Shown here: one piece after another, positions 1,330-33,200 of the stretch
Position numbering within the stretch: position 1 is the first letter of the stretch
Layout of the letters: each line of letters starts with the position of its first letter
From: Malus domestica
Lineage: Eukaryota; Streptophyta; Magnoliopsida; Rosales; Rosaceae
DNA length: 64,000 nt
NCBI RefSeq assembly: GCF_042453785.1
Contig: NC_091674.1
Span: 24,320,001 to 24,384,000, forward strand
Direction: 5' to 3'
Translations under genes and position numbers: made by a program
The notes under the pieces: model-generated
The model's input: the letters and a program-made list of their open reading frames with translations, nothing else
The model's database searches: none
Told to the model about the DNA's origin: nothing

Positions 1330-3305
1330 TATCTCTCGATGTCCTACGTAATGCTTGATGTGTGACATGGCTTACTTTAATTAGAAGGTGCTCAGATCAT
1401 ATCAGTCCTTGTCCATATTTATTTTTTATTATTTATAATCCCAGCAAACAACTGATCGTCCTGCTTGCGTATTCAAGTTGAATTACACTACGTACTCTTC
1501 TTTCCTTTTCAATTTAGGTGGCTATATATCTCATGTGTTGATTAAACTAATTCCACGATTAGTGGTGTACTAGATAAGTGGACTACGTTGTTTGTAGTCA
1601 TTAAGATCCTTAATGGCTAGGATCGGAGGACACTTAATTTTTTACACATATTTTGGCACTCATTTTATAGGGTGTACTTCATAATGTATTTCAACTATCT
1701 AATCCTCTATCTTTTAGGTATTCTCTAAAAAACATGTCTATCAAAAATCACCCAAAACGAAACCATATGACCGTTTGATTAAATGATAGTCATTTTGTGT
1801 TCTTTGAAGAGCCCTCCATTTTCTGTACTACAAATGATAGTTTAATGATTTTAGATTTATCTAATTTTTTACAAAATTAATCTATAAAATTATGAACTAA
1901 AAAATAAACGGTTCAACTTTGAAAAAAAAAATATAAAATAAGTGTCAAAATATATCTCCCAATCCCAACTCATTAAGTATAAACTTATAAAACCAAACTC
2001 AGAAAAAGAGTACACTAAATTTGTAATCCATGTGAAAAATGAGCATCACATGACACATGTGTAATCCATGTGTAATGCATGTTGCCAGTTCATCTACACG
2101 TACAAAACAATATGTTAAAAAAGATCGCATCTTTATGCCTTAGGCCACCAAAAAAAACCCTAAATTAATGCTTTAAGTTGTCAAAATGTAACCTTCACCC
2201 GTAGATTCTTTAAAAGTTTGCTAGAGCACCAACTGAACCAATGGATGCCTATTTTACACGGTATCAAAATACAATTGTGGTGGTGGTGGTGGTGACGGAA
2301 ATGACGGTAAATATGAACCGTAATTGGAGATGTCACGCAACGGTGATAGCAAAGGTAATTATGATAAACTGGTAGGTATCTTTGGATATACATCGAGAAC
2401 TCCAGCCCGATCGACGACCTTGTGCTAGGTTTGGAATTTCTGTCACTCTCTGGTCCCATGCACGGCTCTAAATTGTTTGATTCCAGTTCTAACAGAAAAT
2501 CAACAATATATATTGGTAATTGATTGATCAATAATTCCCACCCGCTTGTTTGATTTTTGGGACATCAAACGTATATATTTTATTGTTGTAAAATTGCCAA
2601 ATCACAGAAAAGGCCAATGATGAAGATGGAAGCTGCTAAAAATCAATGGGGCCGATAAGCAGCCCCATTTTAATAATTTATACACATGTGATAAGCAAGG
2701 TCGATGAGTTGAAAAAGGTTAGGTATATTAGTAAGCCCCAATGAACTGCGACCGTAACTCGGTTCTAAAGTAGTGAGATTTTTTGTCAGGTAAGTTTCGA
2801 CTCGCATGAAAGAAGTAACGATCTGGATATTGTTTCGAAGAGAAGTTTGGAGAAAAAGACATAACTGTGAAGATGCAGATTACTTACATCTTGACAGAAA
2901 GATTCTATCAAGCTTCACTAAGGAAAAACAAGGTCTTTTATCTAAAGAAATGCCTTCTGAAATATCTAATCAACATTATGATCAATAATTCAGATTTTTA
3001 ATATTATATTTTATGCACATGTATTTTGGAGGAGCTCATGTCATATGTAATTCACGTTCTCATTTACATAATTAGGGTTGTTTACTAGATTAGATATTTA
3101 ATTTTAGCGGTAATCTAGAAGGGGGACTGAGTTTATGCGTGTCAACTTCCTACTACGAAAATTTGACAAAATATATTACTTCTTGTAAATGAATAGATTT
3201 ACTACTAATATTATTCAGGTATTTTGGAATAAAATTCAACACGTGAGGGTTGCGGCATGTGGTTAAGTTAGAAAACATATTCATGCTATGTTCGAGGGAA
3301 ATGTT
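1330..3305. other. Spacer, no gene seen
   Basis: This is AT-rich DNA without a convincing gene. A short GGT repeat lies near 2278-2293. Small open frames at 2181-2531 (minus) and 2806-2988 (plus) have no known domain. Confidence 0.55.
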
Positions 3306-3306
3306 T

Positions 3307-3623
3307 GGGCTTTATAGCTAAAATGGTCCTTGTTATTATCATAACTCTTCATTTTGGTCATTGAGATTAAAAATCAATATAAGTGGTTCCTAAAATTGTC
3401 AATCATTTTTTGTTCGTCTGTGAAAAATATCTATTAAATTGAAGAAATCATCCGTTCAAAGGGAATAGTTGATTTGACAAAAATACTTTCAGTTTAATAG
3501 AAATTTCTCATAAAATGACTAAAATGATTGACAGGGGACAATCTCTATGTTCTATCGGTTTTAAATTTTAAGAATCAAAGTAAAAAGTTATGTAAATCTC
3601 AAAATCATTTTAGATAAAAAGCC
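3307..3623. mobile_element. Foldback MITE-like element
   Basis: The left end (GGCTTTATAGCTAAAATGG) and the reverse complement of the right end (GGCTTTTTATCTAAAATGA) match, and the inverted similarity runs inward with many mismatches. No coding content. The divergence of the arms suggests an old copy. Confidence 0.5.
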
Positions 3624-4088
3624 AAATATTTATATGCAGTTGAGTTGAGTCCACAAGAACTGCGGTTTTAGTAAATTAGTGACAGATAAACAATCACACG
3701 TGTAATGAAATTTCAAAAAAAACTTAAAAAATTAAAACGTGAAGGTCATAGACTCAGAGTAATTAAGCACTTCTATTAATTTTGTTTTAACTCATAAAAA
3801 AATCAACCTCAGATTTGTTTGGGATGCTATTGCTAATTTCCAATCCTCCCATCACGTTCATATCATATCTTATCAACTAACGTACTCACTTGACCAGATC
3901 ACAATCCACTCCACATAGAGCATGGAAACGACAAGAACCTAAATGAAGAAATTGAAACTCTTCAAAACATTTTAATCTTGATTAATATTCTCTATCCCTA
4001 GTGAAGCAAATCTTACAATTTGGTGTCACTCTTTAACTATAACTCTCAAAGTTAGTACTTGATAAGTAGATGACGGGTAATTTTTTAT

Positions 4089-4752: not shown

Positions 4753-5301
4753 AGGGTAAACTGCCAATTTAGTCCCTGAATTATCACCTTAGTGAAAATT
4801 AGGTCCCTAAACTATTTTTTCAGAAAAATTAGTCCCTGAATTATAAAAATCTGCCAATTACATCCCTAATGTTATATTCGAAGCTACTATATTCAATTTT
4901 TCATCAATTTAAGTCACGTTACTTGCATGTGATACACATTGGAGGGTAGATTGGTAGTTTTTCATAAAGAAATAGTGTATGGAGTTAACTTTGGAGGAGA
5001 AGTTGGTAGTTTTTCATAAAGAAATAGTGTAAGTTAACTTTTGAGGGTAAATTAGACATTAAATTTGCAACCTATATGAAATGTTAGGCACTTACAGACG
5101 AGAAAATGATGGTATTACACTCTAAAGTGTGTCAAGTGACTTAATTTGACAAAAAATTGGTTAAAATAGCTTTGAATATAATAGTATGGATGAAATTAGC
5201 AATTTCTAATGAATTTAGGGACTTATTTTACCGAAAAAATAATTCAGGGACCTAATTTTCACTGAGGTGATAGTTCAGGGACTAAATCGGCACTTCACCC
5301 T
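4753..5301. mobile_element. MITE, 549 bp, long inverted ends
   Basis: The ends are long imperfect inverted repeats: AGGGTAAACTGCCAATTTAG against AGGGTGAAGTGCCGATTTAG, continuing for roughly 90 bases through AGTCCCTGAA and TTAGGTCCCT motifs. A 7-bp flanking repeat ATAATAT lies at 4746-4752 and 5302-5308, though AT-rich flanks make this weak evidence. A direct repeat with the core GGTAGTTTTTCATAAAGAAA lies inside, at about 4951 and 5006. No open frame. Confidence 0.75.
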
Positions 5302-6900
5302 ATAATATATGGATCTTTTTACTAAGTTCATGGCATAGTAATCATGTCGTTTACTCATATTAATACATGATAACACCACATGACGGTATGTCTGTCACTC
5401 AAAATATTTCATGAATAATGTAAAGTCCGACATAAAAAACCAAACATAATAAAGTACAACATACATTGAATTGTTTTCGATTCCACTACTAATAACATCG
5501 AGTCGTTTTGTAAAAGACCTCCTACCTATTAAGATACACAAACATTTAAACTGAAAATAATATTGATATTATAGTATTGTTGATCCCTCATGTTATCATT
5601 ATACATACTAGCCTTCATGCGCGTGCATAAGACATTTTTTTGAATCATGGCGGGCTATGTGTGACTTACACATTTTAAATGAATAATATTAGATCATGCT
5701 AGAAGAAACCCTTCATAAACCAATCAAAGTAGATGAATCCACATAATAAAATCGATCTTTCAATTTCGATCTACATTCTATTGAATTTACATTAAGAATA
5801 GAGAAAATAATATCTAATAAATAACTAAATGAATCGCATTATTGCTAGTCCATTGTGAGGTATTAATTATAAAAAAAAATTTTAAAAAAAACATTGTACA
5901 TGAAAAGGTTAAATATTAAAAATATTATTTATCACTGTATATTAAATAGTTAAACATTAAAAACACGGTTTATCACTATTTATATGACAAAAATACCCCT
6001 ACCACATTTGATGCATTATTTTGGGCTGGCTTTGAAGTTTTTTTGTTTGAGGGGCATTTCTGTCCACTTATTTTTGGTGAAGTCTGTGACCTCAAAAATC
6101 ATTGTTCAAAAGCCCTGCCGGCTTTATATTAAACATATATACATATATAGTCCCTTTATGCAAAGGGATCCCCATTTTTTGAAAAAATGGGGATTTGGTG
6201 TTCAACTTAGTTTGTAAGTCTCAATTCATAGATCATCATTGCAAAATTCATTCAATCCAAAATCATTTGCCTATTTAATTATCAAAATAAAATTTTATTG
6301 TTTTTTATATAACAAAGTATTTGTTAATTTTTTTGAACCTAATTAGATGACTTAAATATTTCTGATTTGGCTAATATTTTACAAGGATGATCTATGAAGT
6401 GCAACTTGAAAAATAATGGTCCGAATTATTAAAATTTGATGTAGTGTGGACCCTACAATTAATCCCTATTTTTATGAAAAAATAGAAATCCCTTCCCTTA
6501 TAAATTTCCTATACATACACACACACACACAAAATGAAAAATATTTCGAAATATTTTTTTAACCGTATTTAATAAACCACATACTGTTACAATTGGTGAT
6601 TATATTTTTTCAAATGATTTAAAATTATAAATACAATTATATTTTTTATATCACATTTGTATCACAATATATATAAAACTCACTTGTAGTAATGGATCTT
6701 ACTTTTTTTTAGAGAGTTGATCCAAATTTGATATAAAAAATATAATAAATTCAACCGTCAACAATCACATCATATAAATTATAAAATATAATTGAAAATA
6801 GTTTATTTGTCGTTACCTTACAAAAACCACAAAGCTGCGGTGAAATCCATATTATATTTATAACAAGTACAAGCCACACAACAAAAAAACCAAACATTCA
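5302..6900. other. AT-rich spacer upstream of MFS gene
   Basis: I see no gene. A fragment of a SINE-like family (see 61630-61764) lies near 5830-5880, and a short hairpin with arms CCCCATTTTTT/AAAAAATGGGG near 6171-6193. The last hundred or so bases hold the promoter and 5'UTR of the transporter gene. Confidence 0.5.
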
Positions 6901-25538: not shown

Positions 25539-26546
25539 TTATTTTTCAAATTTCTAACTAATTATATTATTACACTTAGTGTACCAAACCACGTGTCCTA
25601 CACACTGAAAAATCCCTCGTCTTTTGCCTCAAACTGATATTGATGCAATGCCATATGGAATTTGTTAAAAGAAGGGGATTTGTTTTTTATCAATAAAAAG
25701 AAAGAAGGGATCAACTTTTTCAATTGAAAAAAAAATGTGAATATATTTAATTTGTGAAATTAGAATTGGAATTTACATACACTTATATCATGCACTAATC
25801 CCTATGACATAGCTAGAATTTTCAAATAATAAGGTCATAATATCAATCAAAAAACTTTATTGGACCATTTCGTCGAGCACCTAATCGGCACCTACCAATT
25901 TCTGTCAACATATGCTAAAAGTTTATACCAATATATGTTGACAATTACTATTATTTGTAGAGGTTTGTCGAGGGTGGATGCAATATAATGTGGAGTAAAA
26001 TCAAAGATTGACAAGGCTTTTCATCTAAAGTATTTCATGAGCACTTAATGCACACAATAGAGGCACAAAAGAAGAGAGAAGAGAAAGACAATTATGATAG
26101 AATAAAATAGAAGAAGTAGGAGGATGAGGTTGTAATTTACTTTGCCTTAGCTGTTTATAAGGATCACATACAATACACAAACAAATATACATGGAGTTTT
26201 TAAAGTTGTTAGGGGTCAAGGACAACAAATAACCCCATGCTGGCTCTGCCATTGAATGCAAGCATAAGAGAGATTGACGTATGTGATAGAATGTTTTGAA
26301 GTTTTAATAATAAAAGAAGTGACTTTTGCACTCTTACTTTTTTTTCTCATAGCACATCTCTATTCATTTTTTTGTTTTTGTTTTTGAAAGTGAATAAATC
26401 AAAGAAAAATCAACGAGTATAAATAAACCAGGATGTGCAAAACAAAAAAGATCGGTGTTCGAAAATCATTTCCAAATAAAAATCCCTCTACATTGTATTT
26501 CATTTCTTCCAAGATACTAAACTCCTTTGAGCGAGACGTTTGTGTA
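25539..26546. other. AT-rich spacer
   Basis: I see no gene or complete repeat between the Copia and Harbinger elements. Confidence 0.5.
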
Positions 26547-27385
26547 TAAGAGCAAGTCTACCAAGGACATTTAGGCTGGCAACCAGCCTAAATGACATGG
26601 CGTGATCTGGGCCGTCCAATCCAGCGATCAACAGTCCACATTTTTCCGCCCAAAAAATTTATAAAAAAATTGTTAAAAATTATTCCACCTTACACCATAA
26701 AAAAATTGTTAAAAAATTTATAAAAAAATTGTTAAAAATTGTTAAAATTATTAAAAAATTATTAAAAATTGTTAAAAAATACAGAATAAACTTTTTTTCT
26801 ATAAATACCTAACCCTCATATTCCACCTTACATCACATTTCAATATTTTCAACACTTTCTACCAAAGCTTTCATATACTTTTTGTGTGAAAAAATGGTTA
26901 CGTGGAAGCTCATCGAAGATGTTACGTTGTGTGAATGCTGAGTTGAAGTCACTCATGACCTAATTGCGGGTAATGAGATGGAGTTGTGAGAAATGTGGAG
27001 TAGAATTACGGAAGCGTTTTGCGCTGTACATGGAAAAGATGCCAGAAGTAGTCAAGGTCTTCAAGGGTATTGGAAAAAACTCAACATATCCTTCACTTGT
27101 TGGAAAAACGCTCTCTCGATTGCTTCCAGTAATTTGCGTAGTGGGACAAGTTTAGTGGATCAAGTGACAATATTTTTATTTATTTATATGTATTCCACCC
27201 ACATCAATATTTTAATTTATTTATTTGTGTTACACCCACATTTTATAATATTGTCTTATCCCACGTTTTGTAGACAATACAAGCACAAGCATTCTATAAT
27301 TCGAAGAACCACGACAAATCATTCAACAAATGGGAATGTTGAGAAATTGTCAAAAATTGTCCCATATACAAAATTGTGCCAACAA

Positions 27386-28428
27386 TAGGGGTGGGCATAA
27401 AAACCGCCAAACCGCAAAACAGCATCGAACCATATGAAAAAAAAACTAAAAATAACCGTGTTGACCGGAAAAGTCAACTTTGAGTCAAAAACCGAACTGA
27501 ACCGTTCAAACCGGTTAATGTTCCGATTTCGAATGATCAAGAACCAGCCAGAACCGAACCGAATCACTTTATTAATAATAAATAAATAAATTATATATAC
27601 ACACATGCCATGGTATAATAGGTTGAAAAATTAGTTTTACCAAGTTGTAAAAGGCTGCAATTTAATAGAAGCTAGAATTTTTTTTTTTTTGTGCAACTGC
27701 ATGTTCTATCTAATATCTTATGAAAGTGTTCTAATTTTTGTGCAGTATACTGAACAAATTGACCCCTGAGAAGTTTGACATTCTCAAGGGCCAATTGATT
27801 GATTATGGAATTACCACTCCAGATATTTTAAAGGTTTGTATTAACTAAATGTCTTTGAAAACTTCTTACTCCATACTAAGCTATTACTTTCCTGCTAATG
27901 AGCTTGAGGGTTCAATTTGAATTGCAGGATGTTATCTTTCTGATATTTGATAAGGTTGTGCTGGAGCCAACCTTTTGTCTTATGTATGCACTTTTATGCT
28001 CATATCTTAATGCAATACTTCCTCCTTTCCCACCTGAGAATGTTGGTGGGAAAGAAATCACGTTTAATTTATGTTCAGGGAACTTGAAAGATCACATCAT
28101 GTAATGTTACCATTCCTCACTTTGAATATTTCTTTTTACTTGCTGCTGTTGTGTTGTATGCAACTTTATATAATCAGTTTTAGAAGATGTTTTTTTTTTT
28201 TTGTTGAAAAGTTTTAGAAGATGTATTTGAATACATGATGATTTGGTGTTCAAATAATTTAGAATTCGGAACCATAAACAGCAAGAACTGAATCGGAACC
28301 AGTGTAGACTGAACCGTAAGGTTATAGTAATAAATTTAACCAGAACCGCACCTAACCGAACCGTTTTTATTTTCCAATTTCGGTTTTGGTTCTGATTTAG
28401 GGGTGGAACCGCACCATGCCCACCCCTA
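27386..28428. mobile_element. Pack-type hAT element carrying eIF4G exons
   Basis: The ends are a perfect 13-bp inverted repeat TAGGGGTGGGCAT, flanked by a perfect 8-bp duplication GCCAACAA at 27378-27385 and 28429-28436, the hAT signature. Both subterminal zones are rich in AACCG/CGGTT words. The middle is not transposon sequence: it holds two exon-like pieces of a translation initiation factor 4G gene (see 27746-28088) with the intron between them still present. It is inserted in the Harbinger ORF1 remnant. Confidence 0.9.
27746..28088 (+). pseudogene. eIF4G MIF4G-domain gene fragment
   Basis: Exon piece A (27746-27833) reads [20 protein letters not shown] then ITTPDILK. After an intron of 94 bp with GT donor and ATTGCAG acceptor, exon piece B (27928 to about 28088) reads [20 protein letters not shown], then [16 protein letters not shown]. 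Together they match the start of the MIF4G domain of plant eIF4G/eIF(iso)4G, the scaffold of the cap-binding complex. Upstream intron sequence with a TTTGTGCAG acceptor is also kept, which shows capture of genomic DNA rather than mRNA. There is no start codon context or rest of the gene, so it is a transduplicated fragment. The parent gene is not in the window. Confidence 0.88.
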
Positions 28429-28533
28429 GCCAACAATTCAAGAAGTTGTCATGCACGACGTCCCTCTACATAGTTCGCCAAAACCAGACACGACCGCACA
28501 GGAAGAAGACACATTTGAAGAAGTGCCAAAATG

Positions 28534-29457
28534 TAGGGTTGGGTTCCGTTTTTTGCCAAAACCGAAACCGAACTGAAATTTTTGTTCGGTTCGGTTCTTT
28601 TTTTTTCGATTCTGTTTCGGTTTTTTTTTTTTTTCAAAAAATGAAAAAAATTGAAATCTTAAATTTTAACATCTCCAACACAATCATAACATATATATTC
28701 TACCTAGAATCAGAGACAATGAAAATAAACATTTAAAGTTCAACTAGAATTATAACATAAAGGTTTTTTTTTAATATTTTTTGTTTAAAGTTTAACTGTA
28801 AATAGATTTTTTTTTTAGAAAAGTAAAATTTTCTACCATTTTCTTCACACATGAACTCTTAACTATGAATAATATAAAGAGCGGGTATAGGTTGGTGGGC
28901 ATGGGTTGAATTAATTTATCACGATAGTACGTACAATGAGAGCATTATCATACCATAACCCACTTTGAACCAACGATTATGCTCTCTTTGTATGTATTAT
29001 CGATCATTTAGTAATGTAATTTACTATTTAGTTGGCATAAGTAATATCAAAAGGGAAAACACTTAATCAAAACCAATACATGATCACTACATATAACAAT
29101 AAGCAATGAAGTACTAAATAAGCATGCAAATACTTGAAGCAAGAAGCCAGATTAAACAAGAATAAGGAACTAACTGTACCGGGTCAGGAGTTAGCACCAT
29201 TTTGGTATCACTATTTTAGGTCCTGCTTTTTTATACAACTTATTCCTTGTAAATAGGAAAAGTAGCAGATGCATTTGGTACATTTCTGATTTTGGCAACA
29301 CATTGGGCTTACAAATTGGTTTTTAAAAAATAATACCCAAAACAAATAATTAAATAAATAAAATTAAAAAAAATTAATTTAATTAATTCGGTTCAGTTCG
29401 GTTCGATTTTTTCTGTTTTGGTTTTTTTCAGTTTTCGGTTTTTTGAACCCACCTCTA
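28534..29457. mobile_element. Second hAT-like element in the Harbinger nest
   Basis: The left end TAGGGTTGGGTTCC and reverse-complemented right end TAGAGGTGGGTTCA are inverted copies. The flanks CCAAAATG and CCATAAAG match at 6 of 8 positions, as expected for an older hAT target duplication. CGGTTCGGTT-type words fill both subterminal zones. No gene is seen inside. Confidence 0.75.
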
Positions 29458-29997
29458 CCATAAAGGACGCCCAAAGAAGTGCCGAAGACTCAGCCGACTT
29501 GTCGGTCCCTAAGGCCTCAAGGTAAAAAGACGGCAAAGAAACAAGGGAGTTCTTCCAAAAATGACTACACAAAACATATGGACGAACTTGCTTACCAAGG
29601 TGAACTGAACATGGCGCGGGAAGCGGCTAAAGATGAGGAAAAAGCTGCTACTATGGTAGCAATATTAGAAGCTACTGAGATACATGATGCGACGGCTGAG
29701 AGACAAAGAGAAATACTTGATCGAGAAAATGAGATGATTAGAGAAGCACTTAATCGAGAAAATGAGATGCTTAGAGAATAAATGATGGCTCAAGCAGATT
29801 GTGACATTATGAACAAACCTCTAATAGGACTGTCTCCGAATTCAAAATATTTTTGGACATCGAAAAAAAGAGACGTGGTACGAAGGAGGCGTGCAAGTGA
29901 CCCAGAAACAAGTCGAGGGGGTTCGAGCTACACAAATCCTAACAACAAAGATCCTAGCACCACATATCCTAGCTGCACAGACTTTGTATAATTTCGT

Positions 29998-30172
29998 ATT
30001 TATTTGTAGTACTTTATTTAGTTTTGTCTTAATTTTTAGTACTTTGTGTAATTTCATCTTTATTTGTAGTACGTTATGTAATTTCTTATTTATTTGTAGT
30101 ACTTTATGTAATTTTTTATTTATTTGTAATAATAAATGTAATTTCTTAAATATTTTTAGTACTTTATTTAAA
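29998..30172 (+). repeat. Tandem ~35-bp repeat between Harbinger genes
   Basis: Five to six diverged units with the core TATTTGTAGTACTTTATGTA lie between the converging ends of the two Harbinger genes. It probably belongs to the ORF1 3'UTR. Confidence 0.75.
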
Positions 30173-30298
30173 CACACCACATAAACTTAAAAGAACGCAC
30201 GAAATAAAATTACATAAACGAAACCAAATAAACTTAAAAAAACACACGAAATAAAATTACGTAAACCAAGAACTATATTCTTCCACCACAAACTCCTT

Positions 30299-33200
30299 TT
30301 AATTATCTTCATTTTGTTGCAATCTCCACTGGTGCTCAATTAAGTCACTTTGACGGGTACAATGCCAGTATGGCTCTTGCATTGAAGTGTAACGCTCAAC
30401 TATCAATTGATTATAACGTTCATCCCGTTCCAGTGGCTCGTGTTGCATGGGATCTTCGGTGCCGTCATGAGCACAATAGATATGTGTTCTTGAGTTGTTC
30501 ATTGTGTCCGGCTCGTATTCATCAACGGCATCATAATCATACTTATATTCCACAATCATGTTGTGGAGAATGATACACGTCATCATGATGGATTGAAGAG
30601 CCTCGACATCAAACATTCTGGCAGCTAACCTGACAATTGCCCAACGAGCTTGCAAGATACCAAAACAACGCTCTACATCTTTCCTACACCCCTCTTGACA
30701 TTGTGCAAAATGTTTTTCTTTTTCACTTTGTGGATGTGGCACTATTTTGACAAACGTTGTCCACCTTGGGTAAATGCCGTCTGCAAGGTAGTACTGTCTT
30801 TCGTATCTATGGCCATTGACCCAATATATGACTCTGGGTGCTTTTCCTTGCAACATTTCGTGGAAAACTGGAGATTGGACAAAGACATTTAGGTCATTTT
30901 GAGCTCCTCGAACACCAAAAAATGCATGCCAAATCCATGTATCAAATGAAGCCATCGCTTCCAAAATGATATTTTGGCTCATTTTCTGTCACCATAAGCT
31001 CCTTGCCACACACTTAGACAGTTTTTCCAGGTCCAATGCATGCAGTCTGTAATACCCTGAAATTTTTAAATATATGAATATGTGGAGGAAATCGAAAATA
31101 AATCGATTTATGATTATGAAGAATTTAATCGAGAACTTTTAAAGTTGTGTTCCCAGAAATTATAATAATCAACGTATTTGTATTATTGAGCTTTTATATG
31201 ATTTTTCAAGAATTTATAATAATTTGTGTAAGTTTAGTTTTAAATTAAACTAGTTACGAGGTTTAAAGTTTGGACCTTAATTATTTAAAATATGTAGACC
31301 TTTCGCAATCAAAATTAATACTTTTGAATAGAGCTCGACCTTACGAACGCGTAGGTGCAAACCGTTCGTGAAACGGAGTTAGAACGAAGAAGTTATTAAC
31401 GTTTAAAGTCGAGGATAAAATTGTAAATTTATCATTTCTAGAATACTCCAGATTTTTTGAGCCAAATCCGGAAGGCCACGTGTGTGGCCCAAATTAAAAG
31501 AAAAAAAAGTTAGGCGGTGGAGATGGAAGATGAAGGAAAGAAAGGAGGGAGAGAAGAGCCAATCAGGAAAAGGGGAGACAGAAGGTGACCAATAGGGAGA
31601 GAGGACTGGAAGAGGAAATGAGAGAATAGGAAATGAGAGAATAGGGGAGCGGAGGATCCACGACCCGTGTAAGGGTGACCCGACCCAGTCGGGTTTTCCT
31701 CAATTTTTCGATGAAATTTCACCATTTTTCGGCGACATTCACCAACCCAACTATTGTAAAACTCTCCATGACCTTCCCCCTTCCTATTTCACCCTAAAAA
31801 CCCTATAATTTGGCCTTGAATTTGGTAAAACCGCACCGGTGGGTGCGATGAACCCGTGCCGTTGTTTTCCCCAATTCTGAAACGATTCCATCAAATTAAT
31901 ACCACCATTAGACTCCCTTTGAGGTCTGGAATAAAGACCATTCATTGGTTGGGGCGTCGGAGTTGTTTTGGAGACGAATTAAGAACACCCAAAAATAAGG
32001 GTTCCGACGGTTCGTGGCCATTTTGAGGTGTTTCCCAACCAAATTGGCTTTGGTCGCAGGTATGAAAGTTGCTCTACTAATTGAGATCTTCATTTCTGTA
32101 ATTTTTGAGAATTTTTAGAAATAATTGAAATTTTCGGCGAGTCTGAGTGGTCGACCGCCACCCACGGCGGCGGGGGCAGCGGCGCACGACCAGGGAGCCA
32201 ACATTTGCGTTGTTATATGAATTTCATTATTTTAAGTATGTTGTTTTTGATCTAATTGTTATGGTTTAAATATTAATATGACTATGGTGTATGTGGGAGT
32301 AAATGAATAGTTTTGTATTTGGTTCGAACTTTTAAATTTTGAACTACGAAAGGCTTGATCCCTGTTGAGGGTATGTAGGCAGTCTAACGAGATGTTAGAT
32401 GCAGCCATAAAATATGTGAAGTTAAAATTAATTCTAGAATAAAGGTTACATAACGGAAATTGGTCCCTACAAAGAAATGGTACTAAATTGGAAGTTAAAT
32501 TACATGTTATGGAAAAATGAATAATGCTTATAAATTTCTTGTGGGATGAAGGATTTTATTTGGAGTTGTTAACTAATGATAATAAACTAAATAAGAGTTT
32601 TATTTTGGGCCTATCACTAATATTATTATTTCTCGAAATAAAGTAAATATTTCGGGACCGGGGCGTTACACAGTCAATGTTTCCAATCATGCCAGGGAAG
32701 CATCGCATCTCACCCTTCCTCAGCAGCCTTCGCAGGTCCCTTGGCGTGGGTGTCCATATGTACTCATTGGTATAAAGGGCTTCGACTGGGGAGCAAAACC
32801 GCATCAGGGACTCCAAAACAGTTGATTTTCCCATCCTCATTATCTCATCCACTTGATCTGCAGATACTCCATATGTAAGCATCTGCAATGCGGTAGTAAT
32901 TTTTTGTTCAGGAATAAGACCTTGAACATGAAAAACATTTTTTTTTTTTTGCACAAAGTATGAATCATGGTTGCAAATAGCACTCATGATTTTGTCAGAC
33001 AAACTTCATTGCATTCTAAAACAACGTCTAAAAACATGATCAGGGAATACATAGTTGGGGATAAAATAATCTTCCAATAGACCTTTACCTCATTTCCCCC
33101 TCTTTCTATCCAAGTTTGCAGCACGTCTGAGGTTAAATATTTGACCCACAACTTCCATAACACGGTGGGAATGTGAGGCCCTCTACCTTCTATTTTCATC

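Follow-up and report, generated by a model that had tools for sequence, protein, structure and literature searches.

How did a part of a host gene come to lie between the ends of a DNA transposon? The question is raised by a 1043-bp element of Malus domestica at positions 27386–28428 of the window (the whole stretch of 64,000 nucleotides that was analysed), for which the original prediction had claimed perfect 13-bp ends, a perfect 8-bp target duplication and, inside, two MIF4G exon pieces of eIF4G with their intron retained. The two terminal inverted repeats (TIRs), TAGGGGTGGGCAT (27386–27398, plus strand) and ATGCCCACCCCTA (28416–28428, minus strand), are each 13 bp long and complementary at 13/13 positions. 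They are immediately flanked by a perfect 8-bp target site duplication, GCCAACAA, on the left (27378–27385) and on the right (28429–28436). When the 64-kb window was scanned for perfect 13-bp inverted pairs lying 300–3000 bp apart and bordered by a perfect 8-bp duplication, this element was the sole match, and the same scan of 20 shuffled sequences (shuffled within 200-bp blocks) returned none; the boundaries originally proposed are thus confirmed.

The flanks of the element consist of a high-copy repeat. In order to reconstruct the empty site, the two flanks were joined with a single copy of the duplication and aligned to the genome (651 Mb, 19 contigs). Host-repeat paralogues spanned the empty site at all 40 places scored out of 400 candidates, with some of the alignments across the joint differing in length by 1–2 bases. 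These empty sites, together with perfect TIRs and a perfect duplication, therefore show that the insertion is real and exact. A search of window positions 26000–30000 against Rfam at gathering thresholds gave no matches. A second hAT-like element of 924 bp (28534–29457), with imperfect TIRs (TAGGGTTGGGTTC and GAACCCACCTCTA) and a duplication matching at 6/8 positions (CCAAAATG and CCATAAAG), is located ∼100 bp downstream, and an open reading frame at 30299–30982 on the minus strand resembles, by eye, a Harbinger transposase. Both hAT elements may be nested inside a Harbinger element occupying positions 26550–31000.

The outer parts of the 1043-bp element belong to a repeat family. Its 5′ arm (element positions 1–266; window 27386–27651, plus strand) carries eight subterminal AACCG motifs, and most matches to the family end at about element position 266. 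The 3′ arm (element positions 677–1043; window 28062–28428, plus strand) is a series of pieces which, in a longer relative (L054), occur in the same order but at a distance from one another. The 21-nt 5′ end of the family is present, with at most one mismatch, at no fewer than 98 genomic places, and its reversed control at none. Twenty loci and the window were scanned for paired ends and duplications; among these 21 sequences the duplication matched at 8/8 positions in eight elements, at 7/8 in two and at 6/8 in one. The other ten were the two donor loci described below and eight loci without an end pair plus duplication, one of which (L047) has both ends with flanking bases that match at only 3/8 positions. 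A 5262-bp relative (L056) possesses the same ends and an 8/8 duplication, GTAGTATT, and encodes zf-BED (PF02892), hAT-like RNase-H (PF14372) and Dimer_Tnp_hAT (PF05699) domains. Short TIRs, an 8-bp duplication and a transposase-encoding relative with identical ends place the family within the hAT superfamily. One more short element was noticed at positions 4770–5641 of locus L057: its ends are related (TAGGGATGGGCAA), and its 8-bp duplication, CTCCTCTC, is perfect.

Between the two arms lies ∼419 bp of contiguous genomic DNA of another origin, in the sense orientation. Element positions 260–682 (window ∼27645–28067) match C15:2886118–2886543 (91% identity) and C8:4131290–4131720 (87%). All of the captured features are on the plus strand. 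The alignment identifies the tail of a donor intron with its 3′ splice site (27652–27745), followed by a complete 88-nt exon that translates into 29 residues of a MIF4G domain (27746–27833), a complete 94-bp GT…AG intron (27834–27927) and the first ∼134–140 nt of the next exon (27928–28067), cut short by the right joint. Since both an intron tail and a complete intron are present, the donor was copied as genomic DNA; RNA-mediated capture was rejected because the intron is still in place. The original prediction had stated that the codons are still largely open; the exons are open in all three copies of the element that we found, and each of the three has retained the intron. In the window copy the frame runs on for 13 codons beyond the right joint into hAT sequence, where translation meets a stop codon (28102–28104, plus strand).

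A search for the parent gene, which had been suggested as a check, led to two loci that both persist in the genome. MIF4G and MA3 domains are both encoded at the C15 locus, a combination that eIF4G proper also has and that is therefore not decisive; the MIF4G piece of this locus matches solved structures of eIF4G. At the C8 locus the same two exons are encoded, the second with 97% protein identity. Open frames extend over ∼4 kb at one donor locus (L041), with putative gene limits, and more distant relatives were found at C15:11.08 Mb and C2:0.50 Mb. We take the C15 and C8 genes to be eIF(iso)4G, probably as a pair of homeologues. eIF(iso)4G is a short protein of ∼780 aa, as opposed to the long eIF4G. 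The claim of an eIF4G donor thus stands as regards a MIF4G/MA3 gene; the name should probably be amended to eIF(iso)4G, in place of eIF4G proper.

As to which of the two genes was copied, C15 fits best, and C8 is not rejected by the AU test. Among nine set trees, the best one places the donor on the C15 lineage; a C8 donor has an AU p of 0.215 and a capture before the C15/C8 split reaches 0.099 at best, IQ-TREE having flagged a poor AU fit for four of the nine. In a hand count of shared derived exon sites, three clear sites and one doubtful site unite the copies with C15 and one unites them with C8. Choosing the donor by distance alone failed: the share of bootstraps with C15 nearer was 0.28 for introns and 0.62 for all sites, the intron distances by themselves leaning to C8.

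Further copies of the element were also sought. One, at C14:16343105–16344090, is 986 bp long and is bordered by a perfect 8-bp duplication of its own, ATTACAAT; one other genomic place was found that spans its empty joint, with 79% identity. Another, at C12:22197685–22198488, has lost its 3′ end. Both have the same joints between hAT and gene sequence as the window copy. The original prediction would have fallen had the gene-like sequence continued past both duplications, or had other copies shown it to be alien to the element; it is confined to the element, and the other copies share its joints. Because two copies combine identical joints with perfect 8-bp duplications of different sequence, the loaded element must have moved at least once. 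It is, accordingly, a Pack-hAT: a non-autonomous, internally deleted member of a zf-BED hAT family that holds cellular-gene DNA between its ends, has moved as a unit and has an extant donor. We infer a single capture event from the shared joints and not from the tree of the captured sequence; in a free maximum-likelihood tree the copies group with C15 (support 91), and the three copies do not form one clade (supports 46 and 21).

Within the captured piece, K2P distances average 0.065 between copies (95% interval 0.046–0.089), 0.082 (0.059–0.110) from the copies to C15 and 0.087 from the copies to C8, C15 and C8 themselves being separated by 0.091. The capture therefore dates from roughly the time of the C15/C8 split, and the moves were not recent. 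Dating by aligning exon and intron, as had been proposed, in this way yields an age relative to that split, as ratios only, rather than an absolute date.

The joints themselves bear on the mechanism. At the left one, AAA (27649–27651, plus strand) is common to the family (TTGCAAA|G) and the donor (TTTTAAA|AGG). At the right one (28062–28067, plus strand), a 5-bp run, TTTAA, read from the alignment, is common to the donor, CATTTAAAC, and the family, AGTTTAATT. The base preceding TTTAA is G in the copies, as in the family and not as in the donor, which makes the right joint ambiguous: the switch could have occurred to the left of TTTAA, or a mutation could have introduced the G afterwards. If L056 and the donor region are joined at random, at least 3 bp are shared with a probability of 0.063 and at least 5 bp with one of 0.0066. 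Short shared runs of this kind fit template switching during gap repair or replication. We envisage that a break or gap arose inside a hAT copy and that, during its repair, template switching would have brought in part of the gene; the later moves of the loaded element would have relied on transposase that a relative, such as the 5.26-kb copy, provided in trans.

Other routes to the same arrangement have to be weighed against this one. That the hAT merely inserted beside or into an existing eIF(iso)4G pseudogene is extremely improbable: we found no evidence for it, the gene piece lies between the TIRs, the flanks are a different repeat that is empty at all the paralogous places scored, and two further copies elsewhere have identical joints. 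Alternatively, two neighbouring hAT insertions might have been re-mobilised together around a piece of the gene, by tandem insertion or by bypass of an end, a model proposed for plant Pack-TYPE elements (PMC8903248). The captured piece, however, does not abut full ends: on both sides it borders on hAT-internal sequence, at 266 bp from the 5′ terminus and ∼360 bp from the 3′ terminus. Moreover, alignment revealed no family ends at either 10-kb donor locus, and no TIR pair was found there; each locus contains one lone, unpaired TIR-like 12-mer with two mismatches, 2.5–4.8 kb from the exon. Because internal hAT sequence flanks the insert and alignment of the donor loci yields no family ends, co-mobilisation of neighbours is disfavoured, and we regard it as unlikely. 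The locus is very probably best explained as a non-autonomous Pack-hAT that acquired its cargo through an internal template switch, moved afterwards and is now a decaying passenger.

Whether the cargo does anything today is a separate matter. The original prediction had raised a small chimeric transcript or small RNAs directed at the parent gene, and one might hypothesise that such products affect the eIF(iso)4G genes, and that this is why the element is kept. The open exons of the three copies, the intact GT…AG intron and the sense orientation would all agree with this, as would the share of non-synonymous changes in two copies, which is lower than in neutral simulations from a donor-like start (L039, 5/13, P=0.015; L040, 3/8, P=0.037). 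However, some of the changes counted in these deficits were inherited from the donor lineage, itself constrained, and the deficits are for that reason not read as constraint; in the same test the window copy has 8/14 non-synonymous changes (P=0.15). When copy-specific changes are pooled over the three copies, 16 are non-synonymous and 10 synonymous, which is not below an assumed neutral share of 0.71 (P=0.196); this hand count excludes the joint base and a single synonymous change found in all three copies. Chance alone is expected to leave a frame of this length open (probability 0.71–0.83), and the frame of the window copy closes soon after the joint, at the stop codon noted above. There is no clear sign of selection on the captured exons. 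A retained function therefore seems very unlikely to us, and the element is today most likely a putative passive passenger, without function and in decay.

Thirteen element copies of the family were extracted, and four of them were found to hold fragments of three other genes. L043 contains a valyl-tRNA synthetase (ValRS) fragment, which matches the NCBIfam valine--tRNA ligase model with an E-value of 1.9e-20, a fragment match that stays far short of the whole-protein cut-off, and valyl-tRNA synthetase in the PDB with an E-value of 9.7e-10; its donor-like stretches measure 196 bp (95% identity) and 545 bp (92%). These two parts (element positions 1457–1652 and 3230–3773) are separated by ∼1.6 kb and overlap by 11 bp in the donor, which suggests a nested insertion with a duplicated target. 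L046 and L045 share an F-box/LRR-like fragment (PDB match to FBXL2, E-value 1.3e-7) that aligns with C14:5.27 Mb over 428 bp at 92% and 234 bp at 90%; the piece occurs at seven genomic places, five of which, judged by position, adjoin family ends. L055 aligns with C15:6.20 Mb over 570 bp at 90% and in smaller pieces. Its fragment, which we presume to derive from a poly(A) polymerase, gave weak matches (Pfam E-value 0.0026, sub-threshold; PDB E-value 0.82). The ValRS and F-box pieces had no match in Pfam, and the F-box and poly(A)-polymerase pieces none in NCBIfam. At the donor places of the ValRS, F-box and poly(A)-polymerase pieces the open frames are 124, 54 and 45 aa long, shorter than the matched stretches, as expected if putative introns came along.

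The interiors of nine elements contain 103 frames of at least 45 aa, ten of which, picked by eye, were profiled against Pfam; one of L050 gave a sub-threshold match to ‘Sterile’ (E-value 0.06). Among the remaining nine copies no gene fragment was identified, a result that covers the 10/103 frames compared with Pfam, the list of frames being one without four of these nine (L044, L056, L057 and L058). All four captures, that of eIF(iso)4G included, run in the direction of the transposase, as encoded in L056; with four cases, such a sense bias could be due to chance. We offer tentatively, rather than as our expectation, the view that gene capture is habitual in this hAT family, which would make it a eudicot equivalent of Pack-MULEs. 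The family would have captured genes independently four times or more (eIF(iso)4G, ValRS, F-box/LRR-like and poly(A)-polymerase-like), taking hundreds of bases, in all four cases in the sense orientation and with several of the captures multiplied, and would thereby seed putative intron-bearing exon cassettes that may be transcribed from the hAT 5′ end. Of all the results, the recurrence of captures within a single family most deserves to be pursued: should the pattern hold family-wide, hAT elements in this genome would rank with Pack-MULEs and Helitrons in shuffling exons together with introns, and a bias towards the sense orientation would become countable.

Among the literature matches listed, from a scope that mostly leaves out subscription journals, no title or abstract opening concerned this particular capture. 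The original prediction had held that gene capture is less well known for hAT elements in eudicots than for Pack-MULEs and Helitrons, and this calls for a correction: Hatvine-6, a hAT family of the eudicot grapevine, often has interiors that match genic exons and introns (PMC2528002). It resembles the present family in its 13-bp TIRs and variable length and differs in being listed with a 9-bp duplication, the likeness being one of description only. In maize, the Ds2-22 element of the Ac/Ds family is described (PMC3260210) as combining conserved hAT ends with an interior that comes from a cellular gene on another chromosome, namely two exons plus the intron separating them; gene and family are different, and the capture studied here is common to three copies. 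The Pack-hATs of maize and rice are likewise non-autonomous, with 8-nt duplications and coding DNA inside. Their acquisition of such DNA is attributed to tandem insertion and re-mobilisation in PMC8903248, whereas the structure seen here favours an internal switch. The Pack-TIRs of animal genomes likewise have short shared runs at their joints, of 1–36 bp (median 2); for these, PMC8277862 proposes gap filling or fork switching, with multicopy forms spread by transposition. The Pack-hAT reading is thus well supported, and the capture of exons with introns by hAT elements is already in print for maize and grapevine; what the present locus offers is one hAT capture with its donors, joints, three copies and source of transposase, from which the order of steps can be read.
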